DNA from: an uncultured Rhodospirillales bacterium
Lineage (GTDB): Bacteria > Pseudomonadota > Alphaproteobacteria > Azospirillales > Azospirillaceae
Reading direction: 5' to 3'
DNA length: 42,298 nucleotides
Assembly (NCBI GenBank): GCA_903931735.1
Contig: CAIZDL010000055.1
Span: 1-42,298 of the forward strand
Position 1 is the first letter of the stretch, and the number at the start of each line of letters is the position of its first letter. Below the pieces are notes generated by a model. It was not told the origin of the DNA and did no database searches. It saw only the letters and a list, made by a program, of their open reading frames with translations. Positions 24,343 to 37,621 of the stretch are shown here, one piece after another. A program made the translations under genes and the position numbers.

Positions 24343-25650
24343 TCACTTCAACAGCAGGGCCTCAAGCAGGCCCGATGAGCGGAGCAGGGTAAAGGCGGCG
24401 ATCGTGACATCGGCTTTGGCCGAGGCGGCGTCGCTTTGAGCGTTGATGAGTGAGGTTTCGCCCGAAAGAACGTCGATCAGCGAGCGTCGTCCATGGAGTC
24501 GTTCCTCGCCGGCCAGCTTTAAAAACTCCCCTGCGATGTGAACCTGATTATCGAGGTGTCCGGCGTTGTCGCGGGCGGTTTCAAGATTTTCCCAGGCATT
24601 GCGGACTTGCTCTTCCACCAGATCTTGCAGTTCGATAAATTTATTGTCTACCGAGAGGTAGGCTTGCTTTGCCGCCTCAATGGAATCGAGGGTGCCGAGC
24701 CCGGTGTTGAACTGGTAGGTCATCTCGACTTTGAAGATATGCTGGGTGCGGTCCGCAGATACGCCGTCGGGGTTGCGCTCCCATTTCCGTTGGGCGATGG
24801 CGTTGATTTTTGGGTACAGCTCCGAGCCGCGCACCCGGTCGATTTCGGTGCGTGCGGCCTCGCTGGTCAGGCGCAGGGTTTCAAGTTGGCGGTTGCCTTT
24901 GCGCCCCTGTTCGATGGCGTTGTCGAGGGTGGTTGGCAATAAATCGTGGGGGAGGGCGATGTGCTGCCGTGCGTCCTCGGCGGTGGGCTCGCGGCCAAAA
25001 AGAGCGCGGAACCGGTTGTTGGCGGTGATGAGTTGGCCCTTGGCCCGGACCAGCCGCGCCTGCGCGCCTGCGAGCTGGCTTTTAGACTGAAGCACATCGG
25101 AGGTGAAGCCGCCGCCCATGGTGACCTTGCTTTCCTCCATCCCGGTTTGCTTTTCGATGTTGGTTACAGACTGCCGGGCAAAGCCCTCGGTCAGGTGTGC
25201 CCGTTCCAGGTTGACATAGGCGGCCAGCGCTTCCAGCAACAGGTCTTGGGTCACCTGGGCCAACGCCGCCTCGGCCTGCCGGACCCCGACCTCCGCCTTA
25301 TCGATGGTGGTGTTGGTGGTGCCAAAATCCCACAGGGTTTGGCGCAGGCCAAAGGTCAGCTCACGGGTGGGCTTGCGGGTGGATTCGTCGGCGTTGTTTT
25401 TGTAGATGCGCTGATGCCCGGCGGAGCTGGTCAACGTAAGGTCGGGAAACCAGCCCGAGCGCGCTTTGGCGGCGGCGGCCTTTGCCGCATTCAGATCGGC
25501 TTTGGCGGCGGCAACGCGCTTGTGCCCCTCGGCCAGGCGCACCAGCGCTTGGCGGTACTCGTCGGCCATGGCGGGGGCAGCCCCCCCCAGCGCGCCTGAA
25601 AGAAGGACGCCCCAGAAAAGGGAAAATGCGAGAGCGAGGCGCAGGATCAT
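24343..25650 (-). CDS. TolC family outer membrane efflux/secretion protein
   Basis: Signal peptide then helical TolC repeats: TFGLRQTLWDFGTTNTTIDKAEVGVRQAEAALAQVTQDLLLEALAAYVNLERA; ...VLSGETSLINAQSDAASAKADV. Confidence 0.88.
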   Translation of the reverse strand: MILRLALAFSLFWGVLLSGALGGAAPAMADEYRQALVRLAEGHKRVAAAKADLNAAKAAAAKARSGWFPDLTLTSSAGHQRIYKNNADESTRKPTRELTFGLRQTLWDFGTTNTTIDKAEVGVRQAEAALAQVTQDLLLEALAAYVNLERAHLTEGFARQSVTNIEKQTGMEESKVTMGGGFTSDVLQSKSQLAGAQARLVRAKGQLITANNRFRALFGREPTAEDARQHIALPHDLLPTTLDNAIEQGRKGNRQLETLRLTSEAARTEIDRVRGSELYPKINAIAQRKWERNPDGVSADRTQHIFKVEMTYQFNTGLGTLDSIEAAKQAYLSVDNKFIELQDLVEEQVRNAWENLETARDNAGHLDNQVHIAGEFLKLAGEERLHGRRSLIDVLSGETSLINAQSDAASAKADVTIAAFTLLRSSGLLEALLLK

Positions 25651-25654
25651 TGAG

Positions 25655-26953
25655 CTACCTTTCCTGGAACGCCATGCGAAGAGACCGGAACCATGGGCTG
25701 AGCAGATACTCCGCCACCGAGCGGCTGCCAATACGGATGCTACATACCACTTGCATTCCGGGATAGAGCTGATAATCCCACCCGCCTACTGTAAAGTTGC
25801 TTTGTCGGGTTTCGATCCGTACCCGGTAAAAGGATCGCCCGCCCGGATTAGCGCCGGGGCTGGAAGGGCTGAGCACCGCGTCGGGGCTAACCCGGATGAC
25901 CCGCCCGTCCAAATGGCCAAACACCGTGGCCTCGGGGCTGGCCAGGGTCACCCGCACCGATTGGCCGGGATGGACGTAGCTGATATCCTGAATTGGCAAT
26001 TGCGCGTCGATCACCAACCGGTCTTGGGCGGGCACGATCTCGGCCACGGTTTGCCCCGGTTGAATGACACCGCCCTCGGTTGCCACGGCCAGGGTCTTGA
26101 CGATGCCATCCACCGGCGCGCGCAGCACCGTCCGCTCCTCAATGTTGGTGAATTTGAGGGTGCGCTGGCTGAGTTCGTCCACCTGTTGTTGGGTTTGGGC
26201 CAGCTCTTTGCGCGCTTGCTCCTGTTGAGTTTCGCGCAGCGAGCCCAGCCGTTCCCGCGCTTCGGCGGCGGCGGCCTCCGACCGGGGCAGGGCGTTTTCG
26301 TCGCCCTCGATCAGGGTGCGCAGACTTTGCTGCTGACGGAGTAGCTCCAGGTGCGCCATGCGGCTGGTGAGGTCGCCACGCAGCATGTTGGCGCTGATTT
26401 GTACCTCGCTGGTAATGATCTCCCACGATTTGCGGTTGTTGGCCATGCGCAGGCGGAGTTCGCGGCTGTCGCCTTCCCGCTGGGCGACCAGACTTTGTTG
26501 AATGGCGATATCGTGTTGCGCTCGTTTGCGCCGGGTTTCAAAAATCTCCCGGGTTTGGGCGGCAAGATCGGGGGCGGCGCTTTCCAGCTCGGGCGGAATT
26601 TCCGGCGCTGGCTTGCCCTCGATCTCGGCCGTGAGGCGCAGCGCGTCGAACCGCAACCCAAGCAGCCGCTTGTTGAGTTCGCTGGCGTCGGACTGGGCGC
26701 GCACCGGGTCGAGGCGGATCAGGGGTTGGCCTTTTTTCACCACCGCCCCTTCTTCCACCAAAATTTCCGAGACGATGCCGCCTTCAAGGTGCTGAACCGC
26801 TTTGAGCCGGGTTGCGGGCGTAACCTCGCCCTGGGCGTTGCTCACCACGTCGAGCGGGGCCAGCGCCGCCCAAAGAATCACCACCGCCAGCAGGCCGAGT
26901 CCGGTCAGCAAAAATTGCCGCTTTGCCGTTGTTGCGCCAAAGAGAGCGGTCAT
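25655..26953 (-). CDS. HlyD family type I secretion periplasmic adaptor
   Basis: Single N-terminal TM, GEVTPATRLKAVQHLEGGIVSEILVEEGAVVKKGQPLIRLDPV, LRAPVDGIVKTLAVATEGGVIQPGQTVAEIVP. Confidence 0.9.
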   Translation of the reverse strand: MTALFGATTAKRQFLLTGLGLLAVVILWAALAPLDVVSNAQGEVTPATRLKAVQHLEGGIVSEILVEEGAVVKKGQPLIRLDPVRAQSDASELNKRLLGLRFDALRLTAEIEGKPAPEIPPELESAAPDLAAQTREIFETRRKRAQHDIAIQQSLVAQREGDSRELRLRMANNRKSWEIITSEVQISANMLRGDLTSRMAHLELLRQQQSLRTLIEGDENALPRSEAAAAEARERLGSLRETQQEQARKELAQTQQQVDELSQRTLKFTNIEERTVLRAPVDGIVKTLAVATEGGVIQPGQTVAEIVPAQDRLVIDAQLPIQDISYVHPGQSVRVTLASPEATVFGHLDGRVIRVSPDAVLSPSSPGANPGGRSFYRVRIETRQSNFTVGGWDYQLYPGMQVVCSIRIGSRSVAEYLLSPWFRSLRMAFQER

Positions 26954-28623
26954 GACCCCGCCCCTTCGGTTGCGGCGGGGGCTGAGCGCAGCAGGACCGG
27001 CTCGCCGCCATCAAAGCGCAGCAACAGTTTCGCACCGCCCAGAATCGCCGGATCGTGGCTGATCACCACCAGGGTTTTGCCCCGCCGGGCGAGGTCGATC
27101 AAGAGGGTGTAAACCGCCTGGGCACCTTCGCGGTCGAGCCCCTCCGAGGGCTCATCGAGCAGCACCAGCGGGCCATCGACCAGCATTGCCCGCGCCATGG
27201 CCAGCCGGCGGCGAAGGCCCGGCGCGAGGGTTCTGCCGCCTCCGGTCAATATTTGGTCCAATCCGGCCGGATGGCGGTCGATTAGCTCGCGCAGACCGGT
27301 GAAGGCGAGGCACCGCAGCATGGTCGCTTCATCGGCATCGGGTCGGGCGGCGGCGAGGTTTTCACGCAGGCTGCCTTCCAGAAACACCGGCTCCTGGGGC
27401 AGCCATGAGACCTGAGTACGCCACCAGTCGAGGGAAATTTGGCGTAAATCGACGCCATCTGCGCGAATCTGGCCCCGGGATGGCTCGATCATTCCCGAGA
27501 TCAGGCGCAGCAGGCTGGATTTGCCGGTGCCGTTCCGCCCGGTGATCACAAGCACGCTGCCCGGCTCCAGCGCCAGTTTCAGGTTGGAAAACAGGGGCGT
27601 CACCGCGCCGGGATAGATCAGCCCCACCGTATCCAGCTCCAGCCGGCCCGACCAGGAGGGGAGGGTTTTGCGGCCCTCGGGCTCGCTGGCGGTGGTGGCG
27701 AAGCTGCGCGCGTTGGTGAGGCTTTGGCCGGCAGAGGCGAGGGCCTTGCTCATCTGGACCAGCCGGGTCAGCGGCGCCAGCGCGCGCGCCGCAATCAGGT
27801 TGGCGCCGATCAACGCGCCAACATCGAGTTGCCCTTGCACCACCAGCACCGCGCCGACCGCGATCAGGCACGCGCCCATCAGCGCTTGTATCGCCTGGAT
27901 CATCGAGCCACTGTCGTGCTGGCGAATGGCGATGGCGGCGCGGGTGCTGCGGGCCTCGGTGGTCGTGGCCTGCCAGCGCTTCATCAGCAGTGGCGCGCCG
28001 CGAAAATGCCGGATGGTGTCGGCCCCGGCGATGGTGGCCATAACCAGCGCGCCCACCCGTTCCCCAAGGCTGTTAAGGGCCTGAATCGGCTTGACCAAGT
28101 GTTGTTGGCTGCGCCATGCCATAAACACCGAGACGGCGCAAAATAAAATCGCCACCAGGGCCAGCGGCGCCGAGAGCAGTGCGAGGGCGAGCAGAAAAAG
28201 CGCGGAAAACGGGATATCGGCGAGGGCTGCAAGATTGGTTGCCCCGAGGGCTTGCTCGGCACGCTCAATGCCCCGAATCAGCTCTGTACGTTCGCCCGAG
28301 GGGCGCTGTTCGAGCGCGCCTGCGCTGGCGGTGAGCATCAACCCAAAGACCCCAATCGTCAACCGTTCGTCGGCGTCACCAATAATCTCTTCGGCCAAGC
28401 GCAGGCGCAGGCGGCGAAAAATGTGCTCGGCCCCAATCGCGATGGCCACGCCCACGCTCAGGCTGGCGAGGGTGCCGCTGACGCCATAGCCGACATACCG
28501 GTTGAGCACCTGGATGACATACAGCGACGAAACCAGCCCCAAAAGGTTCACGACCAGTGATGCCAGCAGCAGATACGCGGTCGCGGGCCGGTTTCGGATC
28601 ATCCGCAGGACGAGTTCGGCCAT
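26950..28623 (-). CDS. Type I secretion ABC transporter permease/ATPase
   Basis: N-terminal TM domain; VLVITGRNGTGKSSLLRLISGMIEPSRGQI (Walker A), PLVLLDEPSEGLD (Walker B), VVISHD (H-loop); signature position reads LAPGL. Overlaps the HlyD start by 4 nt. Confidence 0.88.
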   Translation of the reverse strand: MAELVLRMIRNRPATAYLLLASLVVNLLGLVSSLYVIQVLNRYVGYGVSGTLASLSVGVAIAIGAEHIFRRLRLRLAEEIIGDADERLTIGVFGLMLTASAGALEQRPSGERTELIRGIERAEQALGATNLAALADIPFSALFLLALALLSAPLALVAILFCAVSVFMAWRSQQHLVKPIQALNSLGERVGALVMATIAGADTIRHFRGAPLLMKRWQATTTEARSTRAAIAIRQHDSGSMIQAIQALMGACLIAVGAVLVVQGQLDVGALIGANLIAARALAPLTRLVQMSKALASAGQSLTNARSFATTASEPEGRKTLPSWSGRLELDTVGLIYPGAVTPLFSNLKLALEPGSVLVITGRNGTGKSSLLRLISGMIEPSRGQIRADGVDLRQISLDWWRTQVSWLPQEPVFLEGSLRENLAAARPDADEATMLRCLAFTGLRELIDRHPAGLDQILTGGGRTLAPGLRRRLAMARAMLVDGPLVLLDEPSEGLDREGAQAVYTLLIDLARRGKTLVVISHDPAILGGAKLLLRFDGGEPVLLRSAPAATEGAGS

Positions 28624-28658: not shown

Positions 28659-31600
28659 TCAGCTTATGGCGGTTTTGGGAGCGGGGAGAGCGCCTCCCGG
28701 CTGGGTGGGGTCGGGGCGGGTCCACTCGACGCCGTTGACGTGAAACCGCTCCCAGATGCGTGCCATCACTTCGTTGACCACCATGTTTTCGTCGTTGCCC
28801 TTCTGGACGTAGAACTTGACCCGGTAGCGTGCGGCCCAAATCCCGTTTTGGCATTCCACGCCCTTAAACTGGGCGTCGGGACCGAAATAGTTACTGGCGA
28901 GGTTCAAAAATATGTCGAAACCGCTGAGCGCCTCCTTGACCAACTGGCGGATCAGCCGTGGATCATAGCGCGGGTCTACGAAGAGCGGAATGCGGACAAA
29001 GTTGGCGTCAAGGTTGCTATAGTTATGGATTTCCGCTTCCGAGACTTTGGCGTTGGCAAGGCAGACCATTTGGCCTTCAAGGTGACGGATGCGAATGGTA
29101 CGCCACGTGATATCCACCACCTGTCCCATGACGCTGGCGTTGAGCTTGATATAATCGCCAACGTTAAAGGGGCGTTCCAGGTTGAGCACGATGCCAGAAA
29201 AGATGTTGGCAATGTTGGCTTGAACAGCAAGGCCGATGATCATCGCCATCAACCCCGAGGTGGCCAGCAAGCTGGTTACCGTTTTGCCCATCACGAAGGC
29301 GATGACCCCGAAGATGGCGAACAGGTAAATGATCAGCGCCGTGATCGCCCGGATGATGTTGGGAATCTTGCGCCCGGTGCGAATCTCCAGCGGGACCCAC
29401 ACGAACCGTTCCAGCGAAATGACTGCCAGCCGCGCCGGGACCACCCACCACAAGGACGCGCAGGTCATAACGATCATGTCGACGGTCGAGGTGGTGAGGT
29501 TTTGCAGGCCGTAATCGAGGGCCATGTTGCCGGCGGACATGAGCAGCAGCGGCCACGAGACGATGCGCAGCCCCAAGGTCTGCATCCGCCAGAATTGCCC
29601 GCGATCCTTGCGGTCGAGCAGGTTGGCCACCACCGAGCCGACCAGCGAGAAGATCGCGATGATCAGGAACCAGTCGTTGGGAACGAAGTCGCGCGGGTCG
29701 ATTTGGTCGGGCTTCAGCAGGCTGCCCATGTCGAGCAGCGAAAATTCTGGTTGGGGCTTGCCGAAGCCGACAAAGGCCGGGTCGCCCTCGGCCCCCCTGC
29801 GGGCGATATCCTGGGAAATCCACGCCCGGTCGAGCACCCAGCCGGCAACCCCGGCCAACACGCGGGAGCGCAACAAGGCGTCCATCAGCGGGTCGGTGGT
29901 TTCGGGGGCGGGGGAAAGCTGGGCCGCCATGCGCTGGAAAAACGAAGCGTCGCTGGCACCCGAGGCAAGATCGAGCACCAGATTGGATTTCAACAGTTGC
30001 TCGGCCAAAGTCGAGCTGCCGTTCATATCCATGCCGAGTATGTCGCTGACATACATGAGGTTGTTGCGGGCAAGCGTACGGTGATGGAACGAGACGCCGA
30101 TAATTTGCGTGCCGTACGCGCGGTCGACCGAGGAATAGTTGAGGAAAAATTTGCCCTTTGCCCGATAGGACCGGTACAGCATATCGCCGACTTTGGCTTC
30201 GCGTTCGGGCTTTTCCAGGTGAATCGGTTCGGCGGCGTTGGTAAAAACCAAGTCTTGGGGCTCGATGGAGCCGCGCCAACGGAACCAGATTTCAAAGCTC
30301 AAGGATACGGTATTATTTGAGAGATCAAGTCCGGAAATCTTCTCAAGCTTCAAGCCCGCGTACACCACATTGGTCTTATACATGAAGCGATCGTTGACAT
30401 AGAGCGCGCGCCCGGCGACCAATTCATCGAGGTAGTTTCCAATGTTTTCTTCGCGGATTGGCGAGAGCTGGGTCATCGCCGCTACCAAGTCGATGCCGTC
30501 GTACACCCCGATCATGGTTTGGGGCGACGACACGCCCTTGGCGTTGAAAGCGATCGGGCCGAACAGGCTGTCGATACGGACATGGCTGCCGTCGAGGGCG
30601 GCAAGGCGGCTGCGCTCGCGCTCGTGAAGCTGTTCGGGAGGCAACCGCGCTTGCTCGCCACTGGGGCGGCCGTGGGCGTAAATCAGCAATCGGGTGGCGT
30701 CGAAAGCGCTGGCGGCCAACCAGTCGGGCGGTGCGCGGTGGGCTTTGACATAACCGTTTTTGAAGCCCTGTGCCAACTCCCCCGCCGTATCGAACAGCAG
30801 CGGCGTTGTGGTCAGCAGGCCATTGAGAGCGGAGGCTAGTGAGGCGCGTTTGCGCGGGTCGGTGATCTGGGCTTCGCTTGCGGCCCACTCGGCTTTAAGA
30901 GCGGCGATAAAGGTGTTGGTGGCCAGAACCCGAGGCCCAAGCACCCGGTTATCGAGTCCGGTGCGGCGCAGCGCGGTCAGCACTTTGGCGCTGGCGGGCG
31001 CATCGCCCAGCACCAAAAAGGCGCCGATCAGCTTTTTGTCTTTGATATCGCTGGCGATGGCTTGGGCGCGGGCGGCAAAATCGGGCGAAGCTGCGTCATA
31101 ATCCCAGCGGTAGAGCACCTTGGTGCCAAAGCGCTGCATCACCTCGTCGAAAGCTTGGCTGAGTTGCTCATTTTGGGCGCCAGCCTGATAGATGATTGAA
31201 ACTGTCTTTTCACCGACGACGTTGCGCAGATAATTTGCCAGAAACCTTATCTCGTAAAGCTGGCTGAACGAATTGCGAAACACCCAAGGGTTGTCGGTGG
31301 TGTCGCCATCAAACTCGGCGGCGGGGGAGATAACCGGCACGCCCCGCGTGCGGTAGACTTCGGCAGCACTGGTCAGCGTTGCCGTTGAGGCGTGCCCGAC
31401 CACGCCGATCACGCCAGCGGCCACGGCCGCTTCGGCTGCCTGTTTTGCCTTATCCGGGTCGTCGCCGTCGTCGAAGGTCAACAGCTTGAGCGGCCGGTGG
31501 TGGAGCCCGCCACCGGCGTTGACCTGATTGACGAAGAGAGCGGCGCCGCGCCGAATCTCCTCCCCCAATGCTTGGGCCGGGCCGCTGAGCGGTGCCACCA

Positions 31601-31766
31601 CCGCGAGCCGCACTTCTTCAGCCCCGGGGCGGACCACCACAAGTTGGATAATGAGGGAGATGGCGCTGGCGACGCAGACGGCGATACCGAGGATCACCAA
31701 AAAAAGTTTGCGTTTCGACCAGTGTCGCCAGGGCGGCGAGGACTCATTTGGTGTTGAAATGGTCAT
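28659..31766 (-). CDS. MscS-family channel fused to a periplasmic type I (LivK/Peripla_BP_6-like) ligand-binding domain
   Basis: 1035 aa. N-terminal TM, then LAVVAPLSGPAQALGEEIRRGAALFVNQVNAGGGLHHRPLKLLTFDDGDDPDKAKQAAEAAVAAGVIGVVGHASTATLTSAAEVYRTRGVPVISPAA; C-terminal SLLATSGLMAMIIGLAVQANIANIFSGIVLNLERPFNVGDYIKL...GQVVDITWRTIRIRHLEG (MscS pore helix and beta domain). Confidence 0.9.
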   Translation of the reverse strand: MTISTPNESSPPWRHWSKRKLFLVILGIAVCVASAISLIIQLVVVRPGAEEVRLAVVAPLSGPAQALGEEIRRGAALFVNQVNAGGGLHHRPLKLLTFDDGDDPDKAKQAAEAAVAAGVIGVVGHASTATLTSAAEVYRTRGVPVISPAAEFDGDTTDNPWVFRNSFSQLYEIRFLANYLRNVVGEKTVSIIYQAGAQNEQLSQAFDEVMQRFGTKVLYRWDYDAASPDFAARAQAIASDIKDKKLIGAFLVLGDAPASAKVLTALRRTGLDNRVLGPRVLATNTFIAALKAEWAASEAQITDPRKRASLASALNGLLTTTPLLFDTAGELAQGFKNGYVKAHRAPPDWLAASAFDATRLLIYAHGRPSGEQARLPPEQLHERERSRLAALDGSHVRIDSLFGPIAFNAKGVSSPQTMIGVYDGIDLVAAMTQLSPIREENIGNYLDELVAGRALYVNDRFMYKTNVVYAGLKLEKISGLDLSNNTVSLSFEIWFRWRGSIEPQDLVFTNAAEPIHLEKPEREAKVGDMLYRSYRAKGKFFLNYSSVDRAYGTQIIGVSFHHRTLARNNLMYVSDILGMDMNGSSTLAEQLLKSNLVLDLASGASDASFFQRMAAQLSPAPETTDPLMDALLRSRVLAGVAGWVLDRAWISQDIARRGAEGDPAFVGFGKPQPEFSLLDMGSLLKPDQIDPRDFVPNDWFLIIAIFSLVGSVVANLLDRKDRGQFWRMQTLGLRIVSWPLLLMSAGNMALDYGLQNLTTSTVDMIVMTCASLWWVVPARLAVISLERFVWVPLEIRTGRKIPNIIRAITALIIYLFAIFGVIAFVMGKTVTSLLATSGLMAMIIGLAVQANIANIFSGIVLNLERPFNVGDYIKLNASVMGQVVDITWRTIRIRHLEGQMVCLANAKVSEAEIHNYSNLDANFVRIPLFVDPRYDPRLIRQLVKEALSGFDIFLNLASNYFGPDAQFKGVECQNGIWAARYRVKFYVQKGNDENMVVNEVMARIWERFHVNGVEWTRPDPTQPGGALPAPKTAIS

Positions 31767-34686: not shown

Positions 34687-36522
34687 GTGCCCGCATATCG
34701 TTCGCGCACCAGCACTCATGGCCGCAACATGGCCGGCGCCCGCAGCCTTTGGCGCGCCACCGGCATGAAAGACGGCGATTTTGGCAAGCCGATCATTGCG
34801 GTGGCCAATTCCTTCACCCAGTTCGTGCCCGGCCATGTTCATCTCAAGGACCTGGGGCAATTGGTGGCGCGCGAGATCGAGGCTGCGGGCGGCGTCGCCA
34901 AGGAGTTTAACACCATCGCCATCGACGATGGCATCGCCATGGGCCACGATGGGATGCTCTATAGCCTGCCGTCGCGGGAGTTGATCGCCGACTCGGTGGA
35001 ATACATGGTCAACGCGCATTGCGCCGATGCGCTGGTGTGCATTTCCAATTGCGACAAAATCACGCCCGGCATGTTGATGGCGGTGCTGCGGCTTAATATT
35101 CCGGCGGTGTTCGTTTCGGGCGGGCCGATGGAGGCCGGGCGCGGCATTATCGGCGGCAAAGCCAAAGCGCTGGATTTGATCGACGCCATGGTTGCCGCCG
35201 CCGACAGCAAAGTTGCCGACGAGGATGTGGCCGAGATGGAACGCTCGGCGTGTCCCACCTGTGGCTCGTGCTCGGGCCTCTTTACCGCCAATTCCATGAA
35301 TTGCTTGATGGAGGCGTTGGGGCTGGCGTTGCCCGGCAACGGCACCATTGTTGCCACCCACACCGACCGTCGAGGCTTGTTTGAGCGGGCGGGCCGGCTT
35401 TCGGTCGAGCTTGCCAAACGCTATTACGAGGGGGACGACGAGAGCGCCTTGCCGCGCTCCATCGCGTGTTTCAAAGCGTTTGAGAACGCGATGGTGCTGG
35501 ATATCGCCATGGGCGGCTCGACCAACACCGTGTTGCATTTGTTGGCGGCGGCGAGCGAGGCCGGGGTTGATTTCACCATGAAGGATATCGACCGGCTGTC
35601 GCGCAAGGTGCCCAATTTGTGCAAAGTCGCGCCCTCCGATCCCGATACCCACCTTGAAGATGTGCATCGGGCCGGCGGCGTTATGGCCATCCTGGCTGAG
35701 CTTGATCGCGCCGATTTGCTGAACCGCGACGTTCCGACCGTTTACGGCACCAGCCTTGGTGCGGCGCTGGAAGAGTGGGATGTGATGCGCAACCCGCTGG
35801 TTCATGATTTCTTTAAGGCAGCGCCAGGGGGTGTGCCGAGTCAGACCGCCTTCAGCCAGTCCAGGCGTTATAAAGACCTTGATCTTGATCGCATGAAGGG
35901 CACAATTCGCAGTCTTGCCGGGGCTTATAGCCTGGATGGTGGCTTGGCTGTGCTTTCGGGAAACCTCGCCCAGCACGGGTGTATTGTGAAAACGGCGGGG
36001 GTTGATCCCTCAATTTTGGTTTTCAGCGGGCCGGCGGTGGTCTTCGAGAGCCAGGAAGCGGCGGTCGCGGGAATTTTGGGCGGAGAGGTCAAGGCCGGTG
36101 ATGTCGTGGTCATCCGCTACGAAGGGCCGCGCGGCGGGCCGGGGATGCAAGAAATGCTCTATCCCACCAGCTACTTGAAATCGCGCGGTTTGGGTAAGGC
36201 GTGCGCCCTGATCACCGATGGCCGTTTTTCCGGTGGCACTTCGGGGCTTTCCATTGGTCACGTGTCGCCCGAGGCGGCGGAAGGCGGCGTGATCGCCCTC
36301 ATTCAGAACGGCGATCTCATTGAAATCGATATTCCCGGCCGGACCCTGACCCTCGCGGTTCCCGATGCCGAGTTGGCCCGCCGTCATAGCAGCCGGAGCG
36401 AAAAGGCGTGGAAACCCGCCGCCAGTGCTCGTAAAGTTTCGCCCGCTCTGCGCGCTTACGCCGCCATGGCTACCAGCGCGGCGCGCGGTGCGGTGCGGGA
36501 TGTTTCGCGGTTGGAGGGCTGA
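34687..36522 (+). CDS. ilvD: Dihydroxy-acid dehydratase
   Basis: [106 protein letters not shown]. Confidence 0.97.
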
Positions 36523-36523
36523 T

Positions 36524-37621
36524 ATGATGAAGGCGTTTTTGGCGGGAGCAGCGTTTCTTTTCCTGTCCAGCGCCGCTGTTGCCTGGGCTGAAGACATTCC
36601 GGAACAATTTTTATATGTTACTGCGGGGGGATTGGTCGACCGGGAACAGATCATAATTGCCGGTTCGGAGACGATGACGCCACTCACCCGGGCCATCACC
36701 TCCCGCTGGGTTGCGCGCTGGAAACATCGAGAGCCCGAGATTCAACTGGTGGGGACTCTGGCCGGCTTTTCCCGCTTTTGCGCGGGTGTGGGGAAGGAAT
36801 TCCCCGATATTGTCGCGGCCACCCGCCGTATTCGGCAAGGAGAGTTTGACCGTTGTCTTGAAAATGGCGTTGCCGATATTATCGAGATCTCGGCCGGCTA
36901 CAGCGCTGTGGCGTTTGTCGGGCGGCGCGATGATCAACCTATTTCGCTCACCCCCAAAATTATTTACCAGGCGATCGCCGCCGAGGTGCCCCAGGGCCAG
37001 GATTTGGTGGCGAACGCGAACCTGCGGTGGCAGCAAATCGATCGATCGCTGCCCGCCACTGAAATTCGGTTGCTGATGCCGGGGGTGACTACCGGCACAC
37101 ATAGCTTCATCGACGATGTGTTTCTTCAGGGCGGATGCCGTAAGTTTCCGGTGATCAAGGTCACGTTTGATAAAGTCGATCGTGTGCGCCTCTGTATCAC
37201 GCCCAGGACCGATGGCCGGGTGGTTGATCTTGGCGTGTTCTATGAAGATGTGTTGCCGGCCAAAATGGCTGAGGGGCCGCCCGGTGTTATTGGCATTCTG
37301 CCTTATTTTAAGGCGCTCGCTCACCAGAACACGCTGCGCATTCTGCCCGTTAATGGCGTTTTACCCTCACCTGAAACGATTGCCAACGATACGTATGAGG
37401 GGGTGCAGACGCTTTATTATTACATCAAACGGGCCCATATGCGGAGCCATGAGGGGCATGGTGTCGTGTCTGGTTTGCGCCAGTTTATTCTTGAGGCGAC
37501 AAGCGAGGAGGCGCGTGGCCCCTCGGGATATCTTCAGGCCGTCGGGCTCATTCCCTTGCCGACCGCTCAGCGCGCCGAAGACCGGCGCTCGGCGCTCCGC
37601 CTCGAACGTTTCACCCGGTGA
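36524..37621 (+). CDS. PstS-like periplasmic substrate-binding protein
   Basis: Signal peptide (MMKAFLAGAAFLFLSSAAVAWAED) then IIIAGSETMTPLTRAITSRWVARWKHREPEIQLVGTLAGFSRFCAGVGKEFPDIVAATRRI. Confidence 0.72.
   Translation: MMKAFLAGAAFLFLSSAAVAWAEDIPEQFLYVTAGGLVDREQIIIAGSETMTPLTRAITSRWVARWKHREPEIQLVGTLAGFSRFCAGVGKEFPDIVAATRRIRQGEFDRCLENGVADIIEISAGYSAVAFVGRRDDQPISLTPKIIYQAIAAEVPQGQDLVANANLRWQQIDRSLPATEIRLLMPGVTTGTHSFIDDVFLQGGCRKFPVIKVTFDKVDRVRLCITPRTDGRVVDLGVFYEDVLPAKMAEGPPGVIGILPYFKALAHQNTLRILPVNGVLPSPETIANDTYEGVQTLYYYIKRAHMRSHEGHGVVSGLRQFILEATSEEARGPSGYLQAVGLIPLPTAQRAEDRRSALRLERFTR

Follow-up and report, generated by a model that had tools for sequence, protein, structure and literature searches.

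Nicotinic, GABA-A and glycine receptors bind their ligands with the Cys-loop extracellular domain (ECD), and to our knowledge this module comes with its own four-transmembrane (4-TM) pentameric pore in the characterised channels. Cys-loop receptors (pLGICs) are pentamers, and MscS channels are heptamers. Tasneem et al. (PMC549065) described the ART-LGIC fusions, in which a prokaryotic pLGIC carries a type I periplasmic binding protein (PBP-I) domain at its N-terminus; they do not mention MscS. The bCNG channels, which are MscS proteins with a cytoplasmic cyclic-nucleotide domain, form a known ligand-gated branch, to judge from the bCNG reports in the reference list of PMC4560390. In addition, SiiAB is an auxiliary proton channel of the Salmonella SPI-4 type I secretion system (T1SS) for a giant adhesin (PMC12607715). 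PBP-I domains on pLGICs and cytoplasmic cyclic-nucleotide domains on MscS are already known, and a description of a pLGIC ECD on an MscS pore was not found in the open-access papers searched. No MscS-pLGIC or MscS-PBP fusion was found in these papers or in the pLGIC inventories PMC549065 and PMC4795631.

We analysed a protein encoded in the window, i.e., the whole 42,298-nucleotide stretch of DNA from an uncultured Rhodospirillales bacterium. The first-pass annotation had claimed one uninterrupted ORF of 1035 aa, and the frame was indeed open from an ATG start with zero internal stops; it lies on the minus strand, which the annotation had left unstated. Pfam recognised Peripla_BP_6 (PF13458) at residues 51-410 (E of 5e-39) and MS_channel_2nd (PF00924) at residues 852-917 (E of 7e-17, 61.8 bits with a cut-off of 20.2), with no match for the residues between them. 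A phmmer search against the PDB matched residues 50-304 to LivJ-type proteins and residues 738-944 to YnaI/MscS. The AF2 model of the full protein, computed with 54 sequences, had a mean pLDDT of 81 and a pTM of 0.69. It ordered the chain as a TM helix (18-45), the PBP (~50-430), a beta-sandwich (460-686), five helices (697-719, 724-756, 759-797, 803-825 and 830-864) and the MscS domains up to residue 1010. Pfam and AF2 thus agreed with the earlier claim that a TM anchor, a type I binding fold, a beta region, TM helices and an MscS end are fused. The start of the anchor is rich in Lys and Arg, which suggests that the N-terminus lies inside and the PBP outside. The features are located in Table 1.

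Table 1. Window positions of the fusion channel gene, its domains and motifs, and the neighbouring secretion genes
Feature	Positions	Strand	Evidence
Fusion channel gene, 1035 aa	28659..31766	(-)	Open frame, Pfam, AF2 model, full-length homologues
N-terminal transmembrane anchor, residues 18-45	31632..31715	(-)	AF2 helix; WSKRKLF at start
Type I PBP domain (LivJ/LivK fold), ~residues 50-430	30477..31619	(-)	Pfam PF13458; Foldseek 4gnr
PBP-ECD junction motif NDRFMYK, residues 458-464	30375..30395	(-)	Invariant in 54/54 aligned homologues
pLGIC (Cys-loop receptor)-type extracellular beta-sandwich, residues 460-686	29709..30389	(-)	Foldseek, hhalign, HMM
Pro-loop (Cys-loop) equivalent, residues 543-554, NYSSVDRAYGTQ	30105..30140	(-)	Alignment with canonical FPFDHQ of L046
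Membrane helices before pore, residues 697-825	29292..29678	(-)	AF2; YnaI similarity from 738
MscS-type pore helix, residues 830-864	29175..29279	(-)	BLASTP to E. coli MscS, column counts
MscS beta-domain and alpha/beta cytoplasmic domain, residues 865-1018	28713..29174	(-)	Pfam PF00924; BLASTP to MscS 819-1018; AF2
Type I secretion ABC transporter	26950..28623	(-)	Pfam ABC_membrane and ABC_tran
HlyD-type membrane fusion protein, same operon	25655..26953	(-)	Pfam HlyD_3
TolC-type outer membrane protein, same operon	24343..25731	(-)	Pfam OEP, two repeats

In a Foldseek search with the full model, 4gnr was matched with an E of 2e-21 and a TM-score of 0.88 on the target. The residues of LivJ that presumably contact the amino acid are S79, T102, Y150, Y202 and E226. 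T128 of the fusion keeps a hydroxyl at the S79 position, and the T102, Y150, Y202 and E226 positions were replaced and varied within the family in the 54-row alignment. An amino-acid ligand is therefore not supported by this sequence comparison, and the PBP may bind a protein or a ligand of another kind. The domain had been called LivK-type; Pfam and Foldseek upheld this for the fold, but the replaced contact residues did not support it for the ligand. The peptide joining the PBP and the ECD, NDRFMYK, was the most conserved of the fusion family. The helix ExRFLANYxRNVxGEK (PBP residues 172-186, window ~31209-31253, minus strand) was among the most conserved stretches of the PBP; it differs from the usual ligand-contact positions and may be an interface. 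A separate protein of the PBP_like_2 superfamily is encoded at 36365-37618 on the plus strand, ~4.6 kb past the start of the fusion gene and beyond polysaccharide biosynthesis genes.

The profile of the middle domain matched nothing in Pfam or among PDB sequences, and direct hhalign comparison with GLIC-type pLGICs was weak (E of 0.004, probability 8), so that sequence intermediates and a fold search were needed. The genome of the fusion also encodes a 751-aa protein (L002) that has a 4-TM end, preceded by a PBP and a comparable beta domain in which the motif reads FPADHQ; in its relatives L046 and L048 the motif is FPFD[HI]Q. In hhalign, the middle domain built from fusions only matched these three PBP-pLGICs with an E of 2.5e-19, and they matched GLIC-type pLGICs across the ECD and TM domain with an E of 2.7e-27; negative controls of the middle domain against the PBP and MscS parts gave an E of 0.24-0.34. 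An HMM from fusions only, searched with Z set to 200,000, listed PBP-pLGICs with canonical Pro-loops: L177 (YPFDHQ, E of 1.9e-32), L046 (1.4e-17), L179 (FPFDSQ, 3.5e-15) and L181 (2.3e-10). L177 matched the chain sequences of ELIC, GLIC and GABA-A over the ECD and TM domain, with a best E of 1.5e-12. Since only PBP-type structures stood among the first 50 matches listed for the full-length model in Foldseek, a separate model of the middle domain was made and used as the query. All of the best 50 matches were then AChBP or nicotinic ECDs, with a probability of 1.00 and E from 2.5e-9, at moderate TM-scores (0.47 query, 0.60 target). A Foldseek search of the full model against viral structures (BFVD) contributed nothing to the identification; among its matches, A0A5J6VL22 and A0A1V0SAA2 are giant-virus proteins, with annotations as neurotransmitter-gated channel ligand-binding domain and periplasmic binding protein.

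By way of the sequence intermediates and the predicted fold, the middle domain is a homologue of the pLGIC ECD. The PBP-pLGIC profile matches, the bridge through L177 and the Foldseek result therefore give an architecture of TM anchor, type I PBP, pLGIC-type ECD and MscS-type channel in one chain. The "extra beta-rich region" of the first-pass annotation was present, and hhalign, HMM and Foldseek added its identity. An analogy with the amino-terminal domain of iGluRs had also been drawn. It is not the only parallel; because the beta-rich region is a pLGIC ECD, the closest one is a PBP-capped pLGIC with an exchanged pore.

The proline of the Pro-loop is said, in the inventory that named the Pro-loop receptors, to be universal and absolutely conserved in true pLGICs. 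The corresponding residue here is Ala550, and 18 of the 54 homologues have Pro. According to Pfam and AF2, the four-helix (M1-M4) pore of pLGICs is missing as well, and an MscS-type domain follows the ECD instead. As it lacks the pore of pLGICs as well as the proline of their Pro-loop, we placed the fusion with the MscS-superfamily sensor channels and not with the pLGICs. In the AF2 model, the last ECD strand (674-686) ran almost directly into helix 697-719, as in pLGICs. BLASTP alignment put M842 and L846 at the MscS gate positions L105 and L109, and these columns were M in 48/54 and L in 47/54 sequences. Residues A835, G838, G845 and G858, at the positions of A98, G101, G108 and G121 in MscS, were invariant in the 54-row alignment.

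The same fusion was found end to end in more than 50 other genomes with ~30-86% identity. The 53 other full-length homologues came from separate assemblies and were 32-85% identical, and the family alignment comprised 54 full-length sequences aligned end to end. Within the genus, relatives carried the fusion at 67-85% identity; across the family, many members did so at 40-60%. It is also encoded on a complete Azospirillum plasmid. These homologues and the plasmid indicate that the fusion is neither chance nor mis-assembly, and they settle whether it is conserved, a check that the first-pass annotation had proposed. An assembly error joining two ORFs was ruled out by the recurrence in many separate assemblies. 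A scan of a genome collection gave 80 homologue loci, in Azospirillum, Skermanella, Paracraurococcus, Magnetospirillum, Magnetococcales, Desulfamplus, Methylococcaceae, Gallionellaceae, Sphaerotilus and others. Magnetococcales, Magnetospirillum and Desulfamplus are lineages known for magnetotaxis and supply many of the loci (L059, L061-L064, L087, L089, L093, L095, L097-L101, L103, L104, L106, L108, L115-L117, L125 and L129), which may reflect sampling, as there was no background comparison. For one homologue, the sole RefSeq name is ABC transporter substrate-binding protein. No relative was found in the viral contigs searched, and a viral origin was ruled out on this ground. Homologues exist in culturable strains of Azospirillum, including A. 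brasilense, and Magnetospirillum, so experiments are feasible.

Genes for a type I secretion ABC transporter, an HlyD-type protein and a TolC-type protein lie downstream of the channel gene on the same strand. The ABC gene probably starts at ATG 28623, after a GGGAG site and 33 bp past the channel stop; the listed ORF start is 28854. When the three window proteins were used as tblastn queries, the complete trio was found in 50 of the 80 homologue loci, and in 45/52 where the locus was at least 13 kb. Its order and its position relative to the channel gene differed between loci. A T1SS was not detectable in ~20 loci, of which several are short contigs; these loci were counted against the explanation favoured below. 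Outside the clade, the trio was found in 0/17 loci, of which nine encode PBP-pLGICs and eight encode fusions of other types, so that the PBP-ECD family as a whole is not linked to a T1SS. Immediately upstream of the channel gene, at least 16 loci encode a large adhesin-like protein that is poor in Cys and rich in GDNSTV; where Pfam recognises its domains, they are LamG, cadherin or Big. The window contains the trio, and a giant protein directly adjacent to the channel gene was not seen there. In Azospirillum sp. B510, whose homologue is WP_012976639.1, the RefSeq row reads VCBS protein, channel (as ABC transporter substrate-binding protein), ABC, HlyD and TolC, and the channel and ABC genes overlap by 4 bp.

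The ECD of this family, fused to MscS or to a pLGIC pore, occurred in 43 of the 399 genomes of a phylum-wide sample. MscS-fused forms made up one side of the ECD tree and pLGIC-fused forms the other, a split that is suggestive only because of midpoint rooting. Further fusion types had ~1000 aa (L195) or ~1170-1190 aa with a C-terminal cyclic-nucleotide-binding domain (L198, L202), and another was found at L201. The type 3 relatives (L198:7867-11370 and L202:2496-6071) combine a PBP, a pLGIC-type ECD, MscS and the C-terminal cyclic-nucleotide-binding domain; as judged from their sequences, their sensors are on both sides of the membrane. As this last domain is that of the ligand-gated bCNG branch, it supports a ligand-gated chimera. 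Three MscS paralogues in the genome of the fusion appeared, by inspection only, to have an MscS domain followed by cNMP-looking sequence. In addition to the fusion, this genome has genes for at least four pLGIC-like proteins (L002:904-3159, L133:1006-2052, L136:538-2433 and L156:934-2319), some with and some without extra N-terminal domains, and those of L133 and L136 were above the Pfam Neur_chan_LBD cut-off. Directly after the PBP-pLGIC genes L190:10202-11932 and L191:10370-11947 come genes with a match to the MCP signalling domain, in line with the older proposal that bacterial pLGICs act in chemotaxis.

We favour, with reasonable though incomplete confidence, a natural chimeric inner-membrane channel in which a periplasmic PBP and ECD sensor sits on an MscS-type pore and serves a T1SS/adhesin operon. 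The type I PBP and the pLGIC-type ECD would be the two storeys of a sensor in the periplasm, and the last strand of the ECD would lead straight into the membrane helices of the pore. A periplasmic molecule or protein would bind the PBP and/or the ECD, and binding would shift the base of the ECD against the membrane helices. In pLGICs, it is the last strand of the ECD that passes movement of the ECD base on to the first membrane helix. The corresponding movement here would alter the open probability of the MscS pore, in which the hydrophobic gate positions are kept, and the flux or state of the channel would then affect the secretion/adhesin system. The domains, their homology and conservation and the operon linkage were observed; channel activity, gating by a ligand, the ligand itself, oligomeric state and the role in secretion are inferred. 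Because the channel is part of a T1SS/giant adhesin operon in the clade, its flux or state would most likely serve adhesin export, surface retention or release, by likeness of role with SiiAB. The lost LivJ contacts, the Ala at the Pro-loop, the heptamer versus the pentamer, the lack of a direct profile match of the ECD in Pfam and PDB sequences and the moderate TM-scores were counted against the chimera, which we still consider probable with these included. Ligand gating in some form is likewise rather probable, and a periplasmic ligand-gated MscS relative stands as the best inference.

Retention of the MscS gate features in the pore would also be expected of a tension-gated osmotic valve, with periplasmic domains that only position or tune it and a PBP reduced to a degenerate scaffold for a T1SS or adhesin partner. 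The lost and variable LivJ ligand residues, the tight T1SS linkage and the conserved PBP helix ExRFLANYxRNV, which suits an interaction surface as well as a pocket, are consistent with such a valve. We nevertheless consider it unlikely, since two sensor folds, the PBP and the pLGIC ECD, were both kept entire over deep divergence, the PBP-pLGIC relatives join both domains to a true ligand-gated pore (two of them preceding an MCP gene), and some relatives have an added cyclic-nucleotide domain. If instead the head gripped the secreted giant adhesin, the protein would be a tethered force sensor, and the pull of the adhesin would open the pore or report surface attachment. The giant Cys-poor repeat proteins directly upstream, with their LamG, cadherin or Big domains, the T1SS that stays beside the channel despite gene-order rearrangements, and the MscS family of the pore would fit this explanation. 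It is improbable, however, because a giant protein was not seen immediately next to the channel gene in this window, and the PBP-pLGIC relatives carry the same head with no T1SS nearby. Membership in the T1SS operon could further indicate a secretion-system subunit that conducts no ions and uses an MscS-derived membrane domain for signalling or assembly, but conservation of the pore-lining pattern and of the cytoplasmic vestibule domain makes this highly improbable.

The favoured chimera may represent a new class of channel opened by extracellular chemicals. The fuller proposal is a separate class of ligand-gated channels, in which a PBP-capped Cys-loop ECD gates an unrelated pore, five-fold and seven-fold symmetry are accommodated, and the channel is a signal-controlled ion/osmolyte valve of T1SS/giant-adhesin systems; it is more tentative, and we put it slightly short of even. 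A conserved ECD-on-MscS family, if true, would mean that the module is transplantable between unrelated pores, would offer a test system for the coupling of ECD motion to a gate, and would turn the symmetry mismatch into a concrete question. Type I secretion/giant adhesin systems would then gain a dedicated channel.

The PBP of the fusion has the fold of LivJ/LivK proteins at ~20% identity, whereas it is membrane-anchored in cis to a channel and its ligand residues are replaced. Furthermore, LivJ/LivK are partners of an ABC importer, as opposed to the HlyD/TolC type I exporter to which the adjoining ABC protein belongs. The pore helix, beta-domain and alpha/beta domain are common to E. coli MscS/YnaI and the fusion, with YnaI aligning from residue 738, but the fusion has ~700 extra N-terminal residues with the PBP and ECD. 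The bCNG channels also combine an MscS-type pore with a ligand-binding domain; in the fusion, however, the sensors are periplasmic and Pfam found no cytoplasmic cNMP domain, whereas the type 3 relatives carry both. SiiAB and the fusion, whose conduction is putative, are alike in role only, as inner-membrane accessories encoded with a T1SS and an adhesin. SiiAB belongs to the Mot/Exb/Tol family, is not homologous to the fusion and has no ligand-binding head; the fusion has no Mot/Exb/Tol match in Pfam. The PBP-pLGICs have the identical order of PBP and then Cys-loop-type ECD, with sequence homology recognisable over both domains. They continue into a 4-TM pLGIC pore and have a canonical Pro-loop, whereas the fusion continues into an MscS-type pore and has Ala in place of the proline.
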